Below are positions 2,620-34,486 of a stretch of DNA of 64,000 nt, in pieces; positions within the stretch are counted from its first letter, which is position 1, and each line of letters starts with the position of its first letter. Source of the stretch: Artemia franciscana (taxonomy: Eukaryota; Arthropoda; Branchiopoda; Anostraca; Artemiidae); the NCBI RefSeq assembly GCF_032884065.1, contig NC_088873.1:6153011-6217010 (forward strand), given 5' to 3'. A model generated the notes under the pieces. That model was not told the DNA's origin and did not search any database. It was given only the letters and a program-made list of their open reading frames with translations. The position numbers and the translations under genes were made by a program.

Positions 2620-3020
2620 TAGATATATATATTAGTGTCGCGGTCGTCATTTATATTCCCTGTGTCCCGGTTGTCATTTGTGTCCCGGTGTCCCAGTCTG
2701 TAATTTCTCTTTGAGTGTCCTGTTCGTCATTTATATTCCCTGTGTCCCGGTCGTCATTTGTGTCCCGGTGCTTTGTTGATGGTGATTGCTAATCGAACAT
2801 TACTTGTGTCCCAGTCACTTTCTCTTTGAGTGTCCCGGTCGTCATTTATATTCCCTATGTTCCTTTATTAGTTTTTATATATATTGATAGATGTCCTGGT
2901 CGTCATTTGTGTCCCGATGTATCGGTCTGTAATTTCCTCACTCGACAAACATGACGTCAGTCGAAACACAAACATAACGCCACTCGATAGACACACAGAC
3001 AACTTATTTTTATATATACA
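2620..3020 (-). mobile_element. Helitron 5' part with minisatellite
   Basis: Minus-orientation 5' fragment. It carries AAATAAGTTGTCTGTGTG at about 2990-3012, TGACGTCA-type sites near 2950, and the GGTCGTCATTTATATTCCC minisatellite from 2640 to 2920. No 3' terminus is visible at its left side; it runs into the 5' end of the neighbouring copy at about 2619. Its own 5' end abuts the CTAG terminus of the array that begins at 3021. Confidence 0.65.
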
Positions 3021-3890
3021 CTAGCTAGTTAGTGGGGCGCTTCGCGCCCCCCCAAGCCCCCCCCCCCGCGCGCGTAAGTCGTTACGCGCCATATTAGTTA
3101 CGCGCCATTGTAGCTGTGTCCCTGTGTCCCACCTGTGAATACAGATAGATTTAAATATATATTTTTAACTACGTAAAACATGCGAATATACAACATTCTT
3201 CGCTATCCCATTGTCTGTGCATATAAATAGCATTTATATTTATATGTCTGTGCATATACAAAGCCTTATGTACTAATAATTACGTCATATGCAAACGCTC
3301 TTTTTACAAACAAACAAACATGCATACACACAACTCGCTTCGTGCCACCCCAACACCTAGTTGGTGGGGCGCTTAACCCCCCCCCCCCCCCAAGCCCCCC
3401 CCCCGTGCGCGTAAGTCGTTACGCTCCATATTAGTTACGCGCCATTGTAGCTGTGTCCCTGTGTCCCACCTGTGAATACAGATAGATATAAATATATATT
3501 TTTAACTACGTAAAACATGCGAATATACAACATTCTTCGCTGTCCCATTGTCTGTGCATATAAATAGCATTTATATTTATATGTCTGTGCATATACAAAG
3601 CCTTATGTACTAATAATGACGTCATATGCAAACGCTCTTTTTACAAACAAACAAACATGCATACACACAACTCGCTTCGTGCCACCCCAACACCTAGTTG
3701 GTGGGGCGCTTCGCGCCCCCCAAGCCCCCCCGCGCGCGTAAGTCGTTACGCGCCATATTAGTTACGCGCCATTGTAGCTGTGTCCCACCCGTGAATAGAG
3801 ATATATATAAATATATATTTTTAACTACGTAAAACATGCGAATATACAACATTCTTCGCTGTCCCATTGTCTGTGCATATAAATAGCATT
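3021..3890 (-). mobile_element. Head-to-tail array of short Helitrons, 337-bp period
   Basis: The minus-strand 3' end is CTAG at 3021-3024. The same unit then repeats: the junction CTCGCTTCGTGCCACC occurs at 3334 and again at 3671, a period of 337 bp. Each unit holds the G-rich 3' terminal region, an ACGTAGTTAAAAA block, a TGACGTCATATGC site and the 5' motif GTTGTGTGTATGCATGTTTG. At each junction the 3' hairpin is cut near its loop and fused directly to the 5' motif. A single copy of the same short element stands at 34140-34486. The third unit grades into the next element at about 3890. Confidence 0.75.
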
Positions 3891-4361
3891 TATATTCCCT
3901 GTGTCCCGGTCGTCATTTGTATTCTAGTGTCCCAGTTTGTATTTTCTCTTTGAGTGTCCCGTTCGTCATTTATATTCCCTGTGTCCCATTGTCCCGGTTG
4001 TCATTTGTGTCCCGGTCTGTAATTTCTATTCAAACAATCCCTGTGTCTCAGTCGTCAATTATATATCCCGCCTGTGCCCCCGGCGTCCATGTTGTAGTTG
4101 TTTCCCTGCTTCCCGGTCGTCATTTATATTCCCGGTCGTGATTTGTGTCCGGGTGTCCCAGTCTGGAATTTTTCTTTGAGGTTCCTGGTCGTCATTTATA
4201 TTCCCTCTGTGTCGGTCGTCATTTGTGTCCCGGTCTGTAATTTATTTTTGAGTGTTTCTTCTTTTTAGTTTTTTTAGTTTTTTACATTTTTTCAGTTTTT
4301 TTTCTTCTTTATTTTTCAGCGTCACTATGAAGTACATATCGCCAAACCTTTGTTTTTTAAC
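3891..4361 (-). repeat. Helitron-internal GGTCGTCATTTATATTCCC minisatellite
   Basis: Degenerate tandem units of about 25-50 bp built from GTGTCCCGGTCGTCATTTATATTCCCTG and variants run from 3891 to about 4250. They are followed by a short T-rich TTTTTAG stretch. The same minisatellite is present at 2100-2520, 19940-20250, 25080-25270 and 53080-53390. Apparent reading frames through it rich in CPGRHLYSLCPG are repeat artefacts. Confidence 0.85.
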
Positions 4362-4886
4362 TTAAATCTGGTAGGCATTGATGACCTTATCCAAGTCAAA
4401 ATCCCAAACCCAATCATCATCGCTATCATTTTCAGTTTTGATATGTTTTGACTCTTGCTTTCCAGGTGGATTTTCATCTAACTGCGTGGTTTTGCGTTCT
4501 TTAGCCGCAAGCCTGTTTTCTTGCTGTTCTTGTGATTCCTCGGCACGCTTTCTTTTCTTACTTTCTCTATAAGCTGCAATCCTGTTTTCTTGCTGTTCTT
4601 GTGATTCCTCGGCACGCTTTCTTTTCTTACTTTCTCTATAAGCTGCAATCCTGTTTTCTTGCTGTTCTTGTGATTCCTCGGTACGCTTTCTTTTCTTACT
4701 TTCTCTATCAGCAGCAAGTTTTTTGGCATAGACTCTTTGAGCAGCTTCCTCGGCTGTTACCATTGTAGGTTCTTCATTCACTTTACAATTAAACATTTTT
4801 CCGTGAACGCATGTCTTAAATACCATTAATGACGTCACCGTCAAAGCAAAAATGACGACAACTAATTTCATGACGTCAGTCAACAC
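4362..4886 (-). CDS. Helitron-associated N-terminal repeat protein (174 aa)
   Basis: An open frame starting at ATG 4886 inside a Helitron whose 5' end lies at about 4941. Residues 5-25 are hydrophobic (LVVVIFALTVTSLMVF) and could be a signal or anchor segment. From about residue 57 there are three near-identical 23-residue repeats with the core RESKKRKRAEESQEQQENR, encoded by 69-bp tandem DNA repeats. The C-terminus is acidic (ENDSDDDWVWDFD). Basic EE-QQ-RKR repeats of this kind are typical of the N-terminal part of Helitron Rep-helicase proteins, and two matching diverged repeats occur at 32046-32198 in the autonomous-type copy here. No nuclease or helicase motif is present. It may be a truncated N-terminal exon or an independently kept small protein; I cannot tell which. 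Confidence 0.55.
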   Translation of the reverse strand: MLTDVMKLVVVIFALTVTSLMVFKTCVHGKMFNCKVNEEPTMVTAEEAAQRVYAKKLAADRESKKRKRTEESQEQQENRIAAYRESKKRKRAEESQEQQENRIAAYRESKKRKRAEESQEQQENRLAAKERKTTQLDENPPGKQESKHIKTENDSDDDWVWDFDLDKVINAYQI

Positions 4887-4941
4887 AGAAATATGACGTC
4901 ACCTGATCCACAGACAGACAGACAACTTATTTTTATATAGA

Positions 4942-8265
<3,324 letters not shown>

Positions 8266-8877
8266 TTATTTATTTGGTTTGCACCTTCTAGAGCCAAAAT
8301 ATAATTTTGTACTCAAAGTACATTTTATTTCAGGCATTTGAGACCTTGTTGTTTTCCCCCGTCCTTCAAAAAGCTCTTTGCTAACATCAGTGACGATGCT
8401 CAAAAAGTCTTCGTTTGAACTCTTGAGTATAGCAAATAAAGTTGGAATGAGCCCTGCCTCTTTTGAAAAGTAGCGTTCACACTGGGAGGAAAGAATCAGG
8501 AATTCAGCATTAAGGGAGGTTTTTGGCCATGTATTTAGGTTTATTTTACGCTCTGTGTAAGATACTTTTTTACATGAACAAGGAGCAGGACCTTGGTTTC
8601 TCTTGAGTGCTATATATTGTCCATTCATACTTCTTCCACCTCTACAGGCATCAAATACAAAGATTTTTGGCTTTCCCACAAGCGTAGGGTAGTATTTTTG
8701 GTTATTCCGAAAAGGTTCAATAATCACTTCGTATCTATTATATGTAGTATCAAATGATGCAATTTGGCCTTTTTCACCTCCGTGACTATTTATGTATACT
8801 AGGACACTCTGATCCTCGGTAAAATCTCCTTTTAAGAAATTCAATAGAGTATTTTTGATTTGCGATTTTAAACCCAT
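8266..8877 (-). CDS. Caspase-like cysteine protease domain (C14), possibly retrocopy or partial gene
   Basis: The 203-residue frame matches the caspase fold in order. A catalytic-histidine motif, VYINSHGG, has His at residue 32. The beta-strand and active-site motif FVFDACRGG has Cys at residue 78, equivalent to QACRG of classic caspases. The small-subunit part AEFLILSSQCERYFS and the closing strand STLSTKLYF-like segment (CTLSTKLYFG) precede the stop. Caspases cleave after aspartate in cell death or signalling. The N-terminal third of a p20 subunit and any prodomain are absent: a TAA sits directly before the ATG at 8875-8877. An acceptor-like TTTCTTAAAAG before 8828 could instead join an upstream exon. 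The aspartate replacing Gln before ACRG and changes in the substrate loop (SSQCERYFS) make normal activity uncertain. No introns interrupt the p10 part. Confidence 0.7.
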   Translation of the reverse strand: MGLKSQIKNTLLNFLKGDFTEDQSVLVYINSHGGEKGQIASFDTTYNRYEVIIEPFRNNQKYYPTLVGKPKIFVFDACRGGRSMNGQYIALKRNQGPAPCSCKKVSYTERKINLNTWPKTSLNAEFLILSSQCERYFSKEAGLIPTLFAILKSSNEDFLSIVTDVSKELFEGRGKTTRSQMPEIKCTLSTKLYFGSRRCKPNK

Positions 8878-17922: not shown

Positions 17923-19635
17923 CTAAAAGTCAAGCCTCTTTGTGCGGGATAAAAATCTGTTTACACTAGTCCGAACTCTATTATTTCTAATTATCAGTGA
18001 TAAAGGAAACGGCACACTTATTTCATGTTCACTTAACTCAAACTCCATTGCTAAACCTGCTCTACAATAAACAGGGCAATCAAATAGAAGATGACTACAT
18101 GTTTCCATTAGACCGCACAAGCACAATGGAGAGTCAGCTTTCCCGATCCTATTTAAAAAGTGAGGCAATCTACTATGACCTGTAATAAGCTGTGTTAATC
18201 TACTATTTGGGGGAATTTTTGATGCAGAGATAAGGTCATCCTTATTTTCTAAAAAGTTAGCCCGCCATGTGCTAACAGAATTTTTAAACTCAGCAAACCA
18301 TTTTGCATACAAAAACTCATTTAAAGATTTACGGTTAATATGAAAGGGCTGATATACACCAAGGTCATTAAAAGAAAGACCCAAAAAATTTGCAATAATT
18401 TGGTCAGTATAATGGCTATGATGTGCCGAATAACTAATTCCATTCAAGGTAGGACTCAAAACCCTCGGCCAATTTTGAGGTCGACCATTTTTTCCATATC
18501 TTAATATACGTAATTCCAATGCTCTTAAATCCATTGGAAGAACTCCTGCGAGATCGGTTACTACATGCGCTGTATTGAAAGATTTAGAGATTATGATCAT
18601 AGAAGATTTTTGCGCCGACCGTAGCATTGTCTGAATATTCTTTTTTCTCAGTGCAGAGATCCAAATAGGACACGCGTATAAAATATGGCTTTCGATTACT
18701 GATTTATATAGCATCCGCAATGCATTAGGATTCAGGTTCCAAGTACTCTTGGCAACCGTTAAAAGACGAGCAGAATATTGTTTTGTAGAGTTAATTTTAT
18801 GTCTAACATGGTCAGTCCATAATAACTTTCTATCAAGAATAACACCCAAATATTTAACCTTATTTTTAACAGGTATCTCAATTCCATCATACATTAGCTT
18901 TACAGTCGGAAGCTGATGCTTCCTTGAAAATAAAATTGTTTCTGTCTTGGATTTATCAAACACGAGCTTGTTATCAACTGACCAAATTTGGAAGTACGAA
19001 AATACCCTTGATGCCAAGGATTCTAAAGTTGATATTTTGCTTGATGTGATAATTGCACAAACATCATCAGCATATGCCTGAATTTTTACATTAGGAATAT
19101 TTATTTCTAGAAGATCATTTATATTAGCCGACCATAACAAGGGGGATAATATTCCACCTTGAGGACATGATCGCTCCAAAATGCACGAATATTCACCCTT
19201 ATACGTAACAACTCTATCAGAAAAGTAACTATAAATTAAATTTAAAAGCCCATCCGGGCACGATTTAGCCTTTAACTTTTTCAGTATTCCAGGGTGCCAC
19301 GCGGAGTCAAATGCGCCTTTTATATAAAAAAATGTGCATAAAGTAAAAAAAATTTTCCGCATATTCTCCTCCGCCGTGGTAACAATACCATCAATTGCAT
19401 CAATAGTACTTTTCCCTCTACGGAAGCCAAACTGCAGGGGCGAAAGCCAACTATATTCATTGCTAATCGCAATCATTCTATTCGCAATGGCACGCTCATA
19501 TATTTTACCGAGATTTGAGAGTAGGCTAATCGGACGATACGAAGCTGGATTGCCATCATTCTTTTTGCCATTTTTTTTTAAACCATTATATTTGCATTTT
19601 TCCAACTTTTCGGGAAATATGAAATTTTTAAGCAA
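17923..19635 (-). CDS. Non-LTR retrotransposon reverse transcriptase (570 aa, 5' truncated)
   Basis: A long open minus-strand frame. RT motifs appear in order: [20 protein letters not shown] (fingers, residues about 31-50), [14 protein letters not shown], a degenerate first Asp motif [24 protein letters not shown] (about 170-180), AYADDV (catalytic, about 200) and [13 protein letters not shown] (thumb). The C-terminus carries a CCHC-like cluster, LCLCG followed by CSHLLFDCP, typical of R1/I/Jockey-type ORF2 ends. It reverse-transcribes element RNA at the nicked target. The endonuclease half is missing: the left part of the frame stops at a Helitron 3'-like segment at about 19640, which suggests truncation by a Helitron insertion or deletion. 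The frame itself is intact, so this is a relatively young copy. Confidence 0.85.
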
Positions 19636-20438: not shown

Positions 20439-21060
20439 AGATTAAATGGCTAAGTGAAAGAGCGATTCTTGCACCCAAAAATATAGACGTCCTTGAAATC
20501 AACAATATTGTTTTGACCAAGATTCGAGACCAGGCAGTCCTTTACAAGTCAGTCGACAGAGTTTTGGAACCAAATGAGGCGGTTAATTATCCATCTGAAT
20601 TTTTAAATTCCGTGGATCTTTCAGGGTTTCCACCACACGTGCTACAACCAAAAATAGGCGTACCAATAATACTGTTAAGAAATATCAGCCCACCAAAGCT
20701 TTGCAATGGCACGCGACTTGCCGTAAAAAAAACAATGGAAAACGTAATAGAGGCCACAATCTTGACCTGGCCTTTTGAGGTTGAGGCTGTTCTTATTCCT
20801 CGCATTCCCATGATTCCATCGGATCTGCCTTTTCAATTTAAAAGATTGCAATTCCCAATTCGATTAGCATTTGCAATCACCATCAACAAAGCTCAAGGTC
20901 AATCATTAAAAAAATGTGGTATAGATCTTAACACTGATGCTTTTCCCATGGACAGTTGTACGTTGCATGTTCGAGGGTCGGTAAACCTGACAATCTACGT
21001 ATATGCAGCGACAATTGGACAGCGAAGAATGTTGTATATTCGCAAGTTTTACACTTGTAT
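20439..21060 (+). pseudogene. Helitron Pif1-like helicase C-terminal fragment
   Basis: The plus-strand frame begins inside the helicase at WLSERAILAPKN and continues through INNIVLTKIRDQAVLYKSVD, GFPPHVLQPKIGVPIILLRN, CNGTRLAVKK and FAITINKAQGQSL (motif V). Helitron helicases unwind DNA during rolling-circle transposition. Relative to the copy at 33950-34133, one base is missing near 20938, so DLNTDAFPMD replaces [19 protein letters not shown] and the end is out of frame. The N-terminal helicase motifs and Rep domain are absent; the left side is broken by the Helitron at 19640-20438. It retains the CAA codon where the other copy has a stop. Confidence 0.8.
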
Positions 21061-21079
21061 TTTAACACTTGTTAATTTG

Positions 21080-21422
21080 TATTGTATCTATCTATCTATC
21101 TATCTATATAAAAGCGAGTTGTGTGTATGCTTGTTTGTTTGTTTGTAAAAAGAGCGTTAGTATATGACGTCATTATTAGTATATAAGGCTTTATATATGC
21201 CCAGACAATGGGAAAGCCAAGAATGTTGTATATTCGCAAGTTTTACGTAGTTCAAAACACAAATATAAATATATCTATATTTATAGGTGGTACACAGGGA
21301 CACAACTACAATGGCGCGTAGCTAATATGGCGCGTAACGACTTAAGTGCACGGGGAGCTTGGTGGGGGGGTTGCGCGAAACGCCCCCACCAACTAACCCA
21401 ACACTACGCCACCAACAGCTGG
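21080..21422 (+). mobile_element. Short Helitron with (TCTA)n 5' end
   Basis: It starts with TCTATCTATCTATCTATATA and AAAGCGAGTTGTGTGTATGC, contains ACGTCATTATTAGTATATAAGG and CCAAGAATGTTGTATATTCGC, and ends with a decayed G-rich 3' region closing in CAGCTGG before T. CTGG fits the CTRR rule. Same family as 34140-34486 and the array at 3021-3890. Confidence 0.7.
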
Positions 21423-27561: not shown

Positions 27562-31226
<3,665 letters not shown>

Positions 31227-32439: not shown

Positions 32440-33075
32440 ATTTTTTTATCACAGATCAGAAAATATAACTCACGTTTCTAAATGACGTCGTTTGGTGCCC
32501 AAATCGAAAATCCAGATCAATTTATGCCTACTTTCAAAGTAAAAGGGCAAATTTATCATAGAGCAGGGTCCCTACTACCATTCTCAGGGGAAAATCATAA
32601 ATTTTTACAATTGTACTTCATCAGTGATAGAAATTCAGAATTGAATGCACGTTGCGAAATTTCTCCCGACGTTGAAAGGACAATCGTTTCCCAATTGTAA
32701 CATCTTTTCCACGAAAATAATAATTTAGTTCGTCTGTTCAAAACAGCCATCGATTTGATGCCTACTGATACGCATAAAATTGTTATTTCCGCTGACAAAA
32801 CGCCTCCTGGCTAACATGTGCGTAGATACAATGCTCCAACTATCGACGAAGTGGCAATCGTTATGGTCGGTGATCAGTTTTTACCTCGAAATATTATTCT
32901 TCATAAGCGAAACGCTCAGTTGGTAAGAATTGCTGTAACTCATCGATGCCCTAAAGCACTACAATGCCCTACAATATCCTATCATTTTTTGGGATGGAGT
33001 CGACGGCTATCACTTTAATATTAAATTGATAAATCCAGCCACTAACAAAGAAATGAATAAGAAATGTAGTCGATG
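32440..33075 (+). pseudogene. Helitron N-terminal domain (Helitron_like_N type)
   Basis: The frame includes FKVKGQIYHRAGSLLPFSGE, FISDRNSELNARCEIS and IVSQLQHLFHENNNLVRLFK, then a stop (about 32812) and YNAPTIDEVAIVMVGDQF and LHKRNAQLVRIAVTHRCPKAL. These match the domain preceding the HUH-type Rep nuclease in Helitrons (IYH--G-L-P and D-E-R). A frame change near 32965-33000 precedes INPATNKEMNKKC. The HUH nuclease that should follow is absent: the sequence passes straight into helicase motif II. Confidence 0.75.
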
Positions 33076-33720
33076 CAAACTTATTATTTGGGACGAGTGC
33101 ACAATGGCACACAAAAAATCGCTCAAGGCTCTGGATCAATGTTTGAAAGATTTGCGAGGGAATTCGAAACTCTTTGGCAACACATTAATATTGCTCACGG
33201 AAGATTTCAGGCAAACATTACCTATAAAACCTAGATCAACCCCTGCAGACGAAATGAATGCTTGCCCGAAAAATTCTAATTTATGGGCACACGTAAAAAT
33301 ATTAAAATTAACTACAAATATGCGTGTCCGATTGCAAAACGATGACTCTGGTCAAACATTTTCAGATCAATTGCTGGCAATTGGAAACGGAAAGCTCCCA
33401 GTAGACTCAATTTCAGGACGTATACAACTACCTGCTGAATTCTGTAATTTAGTGATGTCCAAAAATGAATTGATTGAAAAAGTATTGACGAATATTCTAA
33501 ACAATTATAAAAATAATAAATGGCTAAGTGAAAGAGCGATTCTTCCACCCAAAAATATAGATGTCCACAAAATCAACAATATTGTTTTGACCAAGATTCG
33601 AGACCAGGCAGTCCTTTACAAGTCAGTCGACACAGTTTTGGAACCGAGTGAGGAGGTTAATTATCCATCTGGGTTTTTAAATTCCGTGTATCTTTCAGGG
33701 TTTCCACCACACGTGCTATA
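33076..33720 (+). pseudogene. Helitron Pif1-like helicase, internally deleted
   Basis: The open frame carries LIIWDECTMAHK (motif II, Walker B), LILLTEDFRQTLPI (motif III region, normally GDFRQ), NSNLWAHVKILKLTTNMRV, WLSERAILPPKNIDVHKINN and ends FPPHVL with a TAA at about 33719. The P-loop (motif I) and all of Rep are missing; the preceding residues NKEMNKKCS belong to the N-terminal domain. This makes a Rep-less, Walker-A-less fusion. It could not catalyse rolling-circle transposition itself. The TAA corresponds to a CAA in the copy at 20640. Confidence 0.8.
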
Positions 33721-34133
33721 ACTAAAACTAGGCGTACGTATAATACTGTTAAGAAATATCAACCCACCAAAGCTTTGCAATGGCACGCGACTCGCCATAG
33801 AAAACAATGGAAAACGTAATAGAGGCCAAAATCTTGACAGGGCCTTTTGAGGGTGAGGCTGTTAATATTCCTCGCATTGCCATGATTCCAACGGATCTGT
33901 CTTTCCAATTTAAAAGATTACAATTCCCAATTCGATTAGTATTTGCAATCACCATCAACAAAGCTCAAGGTCAATCATTAGAAAAATGTGGTATAGATCT
34001 TAATACTGATTGTTTTTCCCATGGACAGTTGTACGTTGCATGTTCGAGGGTGGGTAAACCTGACAATCTATTTATATGCGGCGACAATTGGACAGCGAAG
34101 AATGTTGTATATTCGCAAGTTTTACGCAGTTAA
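33721..34133 (+). pseudogene. Helitron helicase C-terminal part, frameshifted
   Basis: Continues the helicase after the stop: LLRNINPPKLCNGTRLAI, a two-base frameshift near 33797 compared with the other copy, then ILTGPFEGEAVNIPRIAMIP, FAITINKAQGQSLEKCGIDL (motif V), [20 protein letters not shown] (motif VI) and [10 protein letters not shown] before the stop. This segment is the source of the helicase-tail relic kept in the non-autonomous copies, although those diverge from it. Confidence 0.8.
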
Positions 34134-34139
34134 TTTGTA

Positions 34140-34486
34140 TTGTATCTATCTATCTATCTATCTATATAAAAACGAGTTGTGTGTATGCATGTTTGTTTGT
34201 TTTTAAAAAGAGCGTTTGCATATGACGTCATTATAAGTACATAAAGCTTTGTATATGCACAGACAATGGGAAAGCCAAGAATGTTGTATATTCGCAAGTT
34301 TTACGTAGTTCAAAACACATGTATAAATCTATCTATATTCGTAGGTGGTACACAGGGACACAACTACAATGGCGCGTAACTAATATGGCACGTAACGACT
34401 TACGCGCGCGGGGGGGCTTGGGGGGGTTCGAAGCGCCCCCACCAACTAGGTGTTGGGTTGGCGGGAAGTGCCACCCCAACAGCTAG
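34140..34486 (+). mobile_element. Short Helitron (about 345 bp) with (TCTA)n 5' end
   Basis: It begins with TCTATCTATCTATCTATATA and AAAACGAGTTGTGTGTATGC, holds CATATGACGTCATTATAAG and a second copy of the AATGTTGTATATTCGCAAG helicase-end motif, then the G-rich 3' region and the hairpin ending AGCTAG at 34486 before T. It directly follows the helicase stop, so it may supply the 3' terminus of the longer element. Confidence 0.7.

Follow-up and report, generated by a model that had tools for sequence, protein, structure and literature searches.

Introduction

Helitrons with more than one 3′ end are well represented in maize, where multiple termini are found in 28.7% of the helA elements and an intact CTAG is absent from 99 of the 100 internal 3′ ends sampled (PMC3288121). 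Head-to-tail neighbours joined by a precise CTAG-TC junction are known in maize and bats (PMC2267711, citing Pritham and Feschotte), and the head-to-tail joins in Helraiser circles are of the same precise kind (PMC4778049). The insertion of a Helitron at A/T in front of a resident Helitron yields a CTAG-TC join as well (PMC2267711). When the hairpin of Helraiser is deleted, the broken terminator is bypassed, and read-through leads to the use of downstream ends (PMC4778049). In fungi, joined ends or tandem copies of Helitrons have been reported (PMC5148889).

Here, we analysed a 64,000-nucleotide stretch of Artemia franciscana DNA (the window), in which the original prediction placed short Helitrons joined head to tail with a 337-bp period and tentatively attributed them to rolling-circle read-through of a damaged terminator. 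Our preferred reading, to which we give a probability of about 0.7, is that the array represents a duplication of the 3′ end of N1, a non-autonomous Helitron, that its junction, J1, arose once, and that the composite moves as one. Such a structure fits the published Helitrons with multiple 3′ termini. A search of the literature on tandem and head-to-tail Helitrons, with subscription journals mostly outside its range, found no description of this very structure in the accessible portions of the papers.

Structure of the array

Tandem Repeats Finder, run on the window, reported a 337-bp period over positions 3025-3896 (2.6 copies, 92% matches, score 1502), in agreement with the predicted head-to-tail array. 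The two junctions, predicted at 3334 and 3671, were refined to 3335/3336 and 3672/3673, with a spacing of exactly 337 bp; the shift is within the 2-nt ambiguity (CG) of the join position at both junctions. The sense strand of the array is the minus strand, on which the hairpins followed by CTAG, and a TCTATATATATAAAAATAAG-type 5′ end, are read. In sense order, the first 3′ end copy is followed by a full unit and a truncated unit (Table 1).

The terminal hairpin is represented at each junction by its 5′ arm and loop (GTTGGGGTGGCaCGAAGCG), which are directly joined to AGTTGTGTGTATGCATG, and the predicted fusion of a 3′ hairpin to a 5′ motif with no flanking DNA is thereby confirmed. The hairpin is also cut near its loop, as predicted: the sequence ends after GAAGCG, and the 3′ arm and the terminal CTAG are lost before AGTTGTGTGTATGCATG begins. 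The first copy of the array is not free-standing and runs on into a longer Helitron body as far as 4945, while the last unit is without the entire terminal hairpin and terminates with CTAGCTAG at 3021.

Table 1. Positions of the array, of the element that carries it and of related features in the window. A slash marks a join or an insertion point.
Feature	Position	Strand	Remark
N1, non-autonomous Helitron copy, 1,925 bp	3021..4945	-	A/TCTATCTATATAAAAATAAG ... CTAGCTAG/T
Open frame of 178 aa (stop to stop)	4362..4898	-	69-bp (23-residue) KRKRAEES-type repeats in the N1 body
First 3′ end copy (unit positions 96-337)	3673..3896	-	Continuous with the element body; terminal hairpin cut
Inner hairpin GGGGCGCGAAGCGCCCC in the first copy of the 3′ end	3703..3719	-	Intact; its own CTAG is next on the sense strand
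Junction J1	3672..3673	-	Terminal-hairpin loop GAAGCG joined to AGTTGTGTG of the 5′-end-like segment
Unit 1, full 337 bp	3336..3672	-	Tandem Repeats Finder and junction mapping
95-bp segment of unit 1	3578..3672	-	Matches the internal 5′-end-like segment of helicase-bearing Helitrons, without its first 14 nt (TCTATATAAAAACG)
Second J1 junction	3335..3336	-	Junction mapping
Unit 2, truncated (positions 1-316)	3025..3335	-	One private base in common with unit 1; probably its duplicate
3′ terminus CTAGCTAG	3021..3028	-	What is left once the terminal hairpin is lost
5′ end of the next Helitron	2999..3018	-	Same strand; abuts the array-bearing element
Intact two-hairpin 3′ end of another Helitron	7495..7558	+	Reference showing what J1 is missing
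Relative of the 95-bp segment at the usual location	34175..34486	+	After a helicase C-terminus (34068-34151); 3′ terminus CTAG/T

The hairpin motif GGGGCGCTTCGCGCCCC has 15 matches in the window at up to two mismatches, one site being counted on both strands, and was expected 0.00 times in 100 shuffles. The reference 3′ end in Table 1 and a second one at 31163-31226, also on the plus strand, carry two hairpins each. The inner hairpin, GGGGCGCGAAGCGCCCC, is followed about one base on by ACCAACTAG, and the terminal hairpin, GTTGGGGTGGCGCGAAGCGCCACCCCAAC, is followed by AGCTAG and then by T. In predictions of DNA folding, the intact terminal hairpin reaches -20.7 kcal/mol (z -8.5) and the equivalent stretch at the junction only -1.8 kcal/mol (z 0.25), with the inner hairpin retained. 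Owing to this loss of folding, it is fair to infer that the internal terminator is bypassed. The predicted read-through of a damaged terminator is thus reasonable for the internal end, and the damaged terminator explains the joint movement of the fused element better than the origin of the tandem.

Among 120 distinct 3′ ends, a sample picked for J1, 64 are intact, 44 carry J1 and 12 are otherwise altered. At three loci (L060, L070 and L073), a single hairpin has formed by loop-to-loop fusion of the inner and the terminal one, with deletion of the intervening stretch. At L014 (2240-2330), two Helitron 3′ ends are joined tail to tail via the terminal hairpin.

Composition of the 337-bp unit

The unit consists of 95 bp from a 5′-end-like segment followed by a second copy of the last 242 bp of N1; 14 nt are missing from the start of the 5′ end, and 16 nt from the close of the 3′ end. 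In the 44 arrays that we read, these missing termini leave no precise CTAG-TC junction within the 337-bp repeats. In larger Helitrons, the 95-bp segment is usually found directly behind the helicase C-terminus and has there the full 5′ end TCTATATAAAAACG-AGTTGTGTG; its relatives in the window lie at 21117-21395 and 34175-34468.

We collected 85 distinct contexts of this segment, a sample biased by the probes used: 47 have J1 and 38 an intact 5′ end. All 47 J1 contexts continue into the N1 3′ end, versus none of the 38 with an intact 5′ end, of which 36 follow a helicase end (the other two are L046 and L093). A chimeric probe favouring a short Helitron, with an intact 5′ end and the N1 3′ end, gave 621 first-look candidates; this combination was absent from the best 40, which were scored, and the start of all 40 matches is probe position 36, which is five bases short of the junction. 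Since no free-standing 337-bp Helitron with both ends intact was found among these contexts and scored candidates, the unit is, on the sequences compared, most likely not an independent Helitron. The predicted "short Helitrons" are Helitron sequence, as proposed, but do not look like short complete units.

The helicase-bearing Helitrons have an arrangement of their own. A complete internal 5′-end-like segment (TCTATATAAAAACGAGTTGTG or close to it) directly follows the helicase C-terminus, and is itself followed by a second C-terminus-like stretch and, where the sequence was read that far, by the 3′ end. This arrangement occurs in the window (21000-21395 and 34068-34486) and at L012, L014, L017, L018, L019, L022, L092 and L094. 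It is a second composite 3′ architecture, distinct from J1.

Distribution of junction J1 in the genome

Two sets of loci were read in the 1.27-Gb genome. For the 337-bp unit probe, there were 2,705 first-look candidates; 40 were scored, and 20 stretches were read. For the 107-bp junction probe, there were 630; 40 were scored, all matching end to end, and 20 further stretches were read. The loci were picked by array similarity, and the frequencies given here are not genome-wide rates.

With the window included, 44 arrays were read at 41 loci, and J1 is identical in all of them, bar point changes. Hundreds of J1 copies are plausible from the first-look counts of 621-630, most of them unscored. 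The first copy starts at unit position 96 in 36 of the 44 arrays, generally after the same body (GGGACACAGGG/AATATAAATGC), and it or its upstream part is rearranged in L013, L017, L026, L065, L068, L070, L073 and L077. There is one position-1 unit in 40 arrays (truncated in some), two in the window, L010 and L028, and three in L027. The probe of the first sample favours longer arrays, and in the second sample all 20 have a single position-1 unit.

Thirty-seven of the 41 loci are on contigs above 34 Mb, and four (L011, L013, L014 and L059) are on contigs below 32 kb. Two points could suggest that the repeated junction is an assembly artefact or a segmental duplication, namely the four short contigs and the common flanks of L013 and L017, which are probably one locus assembled twice. 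Set against the chromosome-sized contigs of the other 37 loci, 3′ flanks that differ between loci and the precise empty site of L016 described below, such an explanation is very improbable for the arrays as a whole. Segmental duplication is rejected for L016 by its empty sites, is unlikely for L020, whose flanks differ, and is likely for L013 and L017. The comparison with other genomic copies, which had been proposed as a check, thus returned the same J1 in 44 of 44 arrays, and the shared flanks named as a sign of segmental duplication were seen at L013 and L017.

Structure and insertion of element N1

The window copy of N1 is preceded by A at its 5′ end at 4945 and followed by T at its 3′ end at 3021. 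Its body aligns with those of L009-L028, and the common upstream body starts with a Helitron 5′ end. The 178-aa frame had no Pfam match at E 0.01, and L016 carries a related frame of 87 aa. Both element ends were located by pattern in 13 of 24 arrays, with lengths from 1,349 to 4,121 bp, the upper values of which also cover additional units, larger tandems or a 5′ end farther away.

Larger tandems were observed at two loci. At L019 (2051-5260), nearly the whole junction-bearing element is repeated, with offsets of 1,268 and 1,351 bp, and the terminal hairpin (GGGGTG) is joined to the start of the small open frame. At L020 (1976-3163), the 3′ part forms a 591-bp tandem, with its junction in the terminal hairpin (GGGGTGGCA).

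The L016 copy, a junction-bearing element of 1,497 bp, is inserted precisely in an older repeat. When its flanks were joined and used as a probe, 38 other places matched across the join in one piece, at 71-78% identity, among the best 40 of 291 first-look candidates, which were scored; the other two of the 40 are the L016 flanks themselves. In the six empty sites that we aligned, nothing is inserted or missing at the join, which reads A/T in five and A/C in one. These precise empty sites show that, at least in L016, a complete junction-bearing element inserted as a unit.

The features of N1 are those of Helitron1. The ends are 5′ TC and 3′ CTRR, and insertion is between A and T without target duplication (L016, six empty sites). 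A hairpin lies just upstream of the 3′ terminus in the family and is missing from the last unit in the window. The genome also holds a RepHel partner, with a PIF1 helicase frame at 32939-33721 and Helitron_like_N in L085. Judging from the shared ends, these helicase- and Rep-bearing elements would be the ones that mobilise N1. Helentrons, or Helitron2 (HINE), have asymmetric terminal inverted repeats and insert between T and T rather than between A and T; the A/T insertion and TC/CTAG ends of N1 set it apart from them.

The composite has canonical A/TC...CTAG/T ends. Its internal 3′ end is without the hairpin 3′ arm and the terminal CTAG, and the distal 3′ end follows after 95 bp, with the terminal CTAG retained in 31 of the 44 arrays. 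An internal pseudo 3′ end and an intact distal end moved as a unit are the marks of a Helitron with multiple 3′ termini; in N1, unit movement is seen for one copy (L016), and an inner CTAG upstream of the lost hairpin persists.

Because J1 is common to dispersed copies, mostly with the same body, and because the L016 element inserted as a unit, J1 most likely arose once and then spread by transposition. An origin in situ in the window is rejected, as all 44 arrays, from 41 loci, have this junction. With the junction shared among dispersed copies, Helitrons that lie head to tail at a single locus should not be read as evidence for rolling-circle concatemers.

Age and order of the duplications

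In an alignment of 44 copies, from which nine copies without an exact anchor were omitted, an 8-bp deletion is present in 13 of 18 first copies versus none of 26 later copies. First and later copies therefore form separate lineages, which indicates that the duplication predates the dispersal. Overall, within-locus identity (0.970) is barely above the 0.965-0.969 measured between loci, which is what joint travel of the copies would produce. In a rerun with a larger database, which has 42 arrays because L013 and L017 fall out on E-value, later units are on average about 1% off their consensus.

The second unit of the window has a history of its own. A C-to-G change occurs in two of 109 scorable copies, with overlapping loci retained, and these two are units 1 and 2 of the window. 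From this one shared private base, unit 2 was probably made from unit 1, in that copy or in a direct ancestor. Outside the G-run, the two units are 96.9% identical, below the between-locus mean of 98.1%, and the units of L010 and L028 are no closer within the locus than to other loci. Both observations, like the small margin of within-locus over between-locus identity, count against a recent local expansion.

Outer ends of the arrays

Among the 31 arrays with a terminal CTAG, 10 have a 5′ end within 75 nt, although L078 proved to be a false match on visual inspection. The distal CTAG of L067 and of L071 (2 of 44 arrays) is joined precisely to the TCTATATATAT of a neighbour similar to the N1 body, at 92-93% over 128 and 315 bp. 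The two joins may be rolling-circle tandems or consecutive insertions at A/T before a resident Helitron.

The precise outer joins, being the mark of rolling-circle tandems, bear on the proposal that read-through, or a circle with an aberrant end junction, made short Helitrons in tandem. The head-to-tail order at J1, where a 3′ hairpin meets a 5′-end-like segment, accords with this proposal, as does the report that about half of the Helraiser circles had aberrant junctions before DpnI selection (PMC5876387). However, the 3′ and 5′ ends at the 337-bp junctions come from different lineages and both termini are missing, so that the precise CTAG-TC join between complete copies expected of a rolling-circle tandem (PMC4778049, PMC2267711) is absent there. 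The unit was not seen as a complete Helitron (0/38 contexts; 0/40 scored of 621), the breakpoint is the same everywhere rather than recurrent, and 40 of 44 arrays have one position-1 unit rather than a long array. We consider a rolling-circle origin of the 337-bp repeats improbable, and the predicted mechanism is not upheld for them: J1 is shared by 44 of 44 arrays and is carried in a larger element, as the L016 empty site indicates.

Origin of the junction

Under the preferred reading, duplication of the N1 3′ end, the founding event would be an illegitimate duplication of the last 242 bp of N1. Synthesis or repair would have halted within the terminal hairpin, about 90 bp would then have been copied from the 5′-end-like segment of a related helicase-bearing Helitron at a 2-nt CG microhomology, and copying would have rejoined N1 just before its 3′ region. 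Neither the internal terminator, which can no longer fold, nor the inner hairpin that survives with its CTAG would halt the transposase, which would stop at the distal end. The use of the distal terminator instead of the internal one would make the composite move as one. The inner hairpin and CTAG of the first copy are intact, so bypass is not explained by the loss of the terminal hairpin alone. Unequal exchange between the 242-bp repeats may have produced the longer arrays, that of the window included, either in the copy itself or in its direct ancestor.

No intermediate of the founding step was observed. Downstream stretches were read at 16 of the 36 places that match the N1 5′ half, and an un-duplicated N1, with one intact 3′ end, was in none of them. 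Four of the 16 match the unit, L092 and L094 in the helicase-end arrangement and L083 and L093 as fragments, and none has J1 or a plain N1 3′ end. This search was fruitless because the N1 5′ half is common to other and longer elements, and its probe may have led to these instead.

Nearly the same junction would be left if the boundary of two neighbouring Helitrons had been deleted. In such a case, N1 would have stood head to tail with a short Helitron with an intact 5′ end, a deletion would have taken the hairpin end and CTAG of N1 together with 14 nt at the start of the neighbour, and the two, once fused, would have moved as one. Head-to-tail neighbours are common, as shown by the 10 of 31 CTAG arrays with a close 5′ end (less the false match at L078, and with L013 and L017 probably one locus), and L067 and L071 are joined precisely to a family member; in maize, nested or adjacent insertion is the explanation given for multiple 3′ termini (PMC3288121). 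The short Helitron that the deletion requires was nevertheless not seen in 38 contexts or in the 40 scored of 621 candidates, and may be extinct or outside the scored set. We regard this course of events as possible but doubtful.

To return to a duplication arising within N1, the terminal hairpin might tentatively be regarded as a recurrent site of breakage and template switching that duplicates element ends. Four tandem duplications (J1, L019, L020 and L035) have their left breakpoint in the same 31-nt terminal hairpin, L019 at GGGGTG/AACTTACC and L020 at GGGGTGGCA/ATGGGACACC, and the loop-to-loop fused 3′ ends of L060, L070 and L073 are suggestive of the same. Tandem joins outside the hairpin also exist, for example in L014/L038/L043, in L032/L034/L058, in L022 and at 6644-7176 of the window; a count made by eye, at loci that had been selected on their 3′ ends, places 4 of roughly 13 distinct tandem joins in the hairpin. 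If the hairpin is such a hotspot, multi-terminus Helitrons would be by-products of hairpin-stalled synthesis and not of nested insertion, and the multi-terminus Helitrons of maize would have a testable origin. The N1 composite suggests that a Helitron may survive damage to its terminator, in that a duplicated end keeps it mobile and the scar is then amplified.

Comparison with described systems

N1 resembles maize helA in having several 3′ ends, of which the internal ones are without a terminal CTAG and the distal one is complete, and in being amplified as a unit (PMC3288121). Unlike helA, it has its break inside the terminal hairpin and a 95-bp 5′-end-like segment between the 3′ ends, and the module occurs with two to three units at 4 of 41 loci (window, L010, L027 and L028). 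With the de novo 3′ ends of bat Helibat elements and the bypass in Helraiser (PMC4778049), N1 shares a damaged hairpin that is passed over in favour of a downstream 3′ end. In N1, by contrast, the downstream end comes from the same family and is found in a multicopy lineage, and the bypass itself is inferred.

The head-to-tail Helitrons of bats and maize (PMC2267711) and the N1 arrays alike have no host DNA between the copies, and the outer joins of L067 and L071 are precise. The bat and maize CTAG-TC joins are nonetheless between whole elements, whereas both termini are missing at the 337-bp junctions. In the satellite-like arrays of the oyster Cg_HINE (PMC7492417), as in N1, tandem repeats are dispersed by a rolling-circle transposon; the Cg_HINE repeats are central and lie in a Helentron, while the N1 array is terminal and lies in a canonical TC/CTAG Helitron.

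Other features of the window

A 261-bp tandem duplication is present in the body of another Helitron, with similar sequence at 6644-7176 and 30229-30753 of the window and in L022 (3645-4168). This tandem may be inherited too. On the minus strand, an open frame at 8266-8877 contains a caspase (Peptidase_C14) domain (E 3.9e-17), and a 570-aa reverse transcriptase frame (RVT_1) at 17923-19635 probably belongs to a non-LTR retrotransposon.
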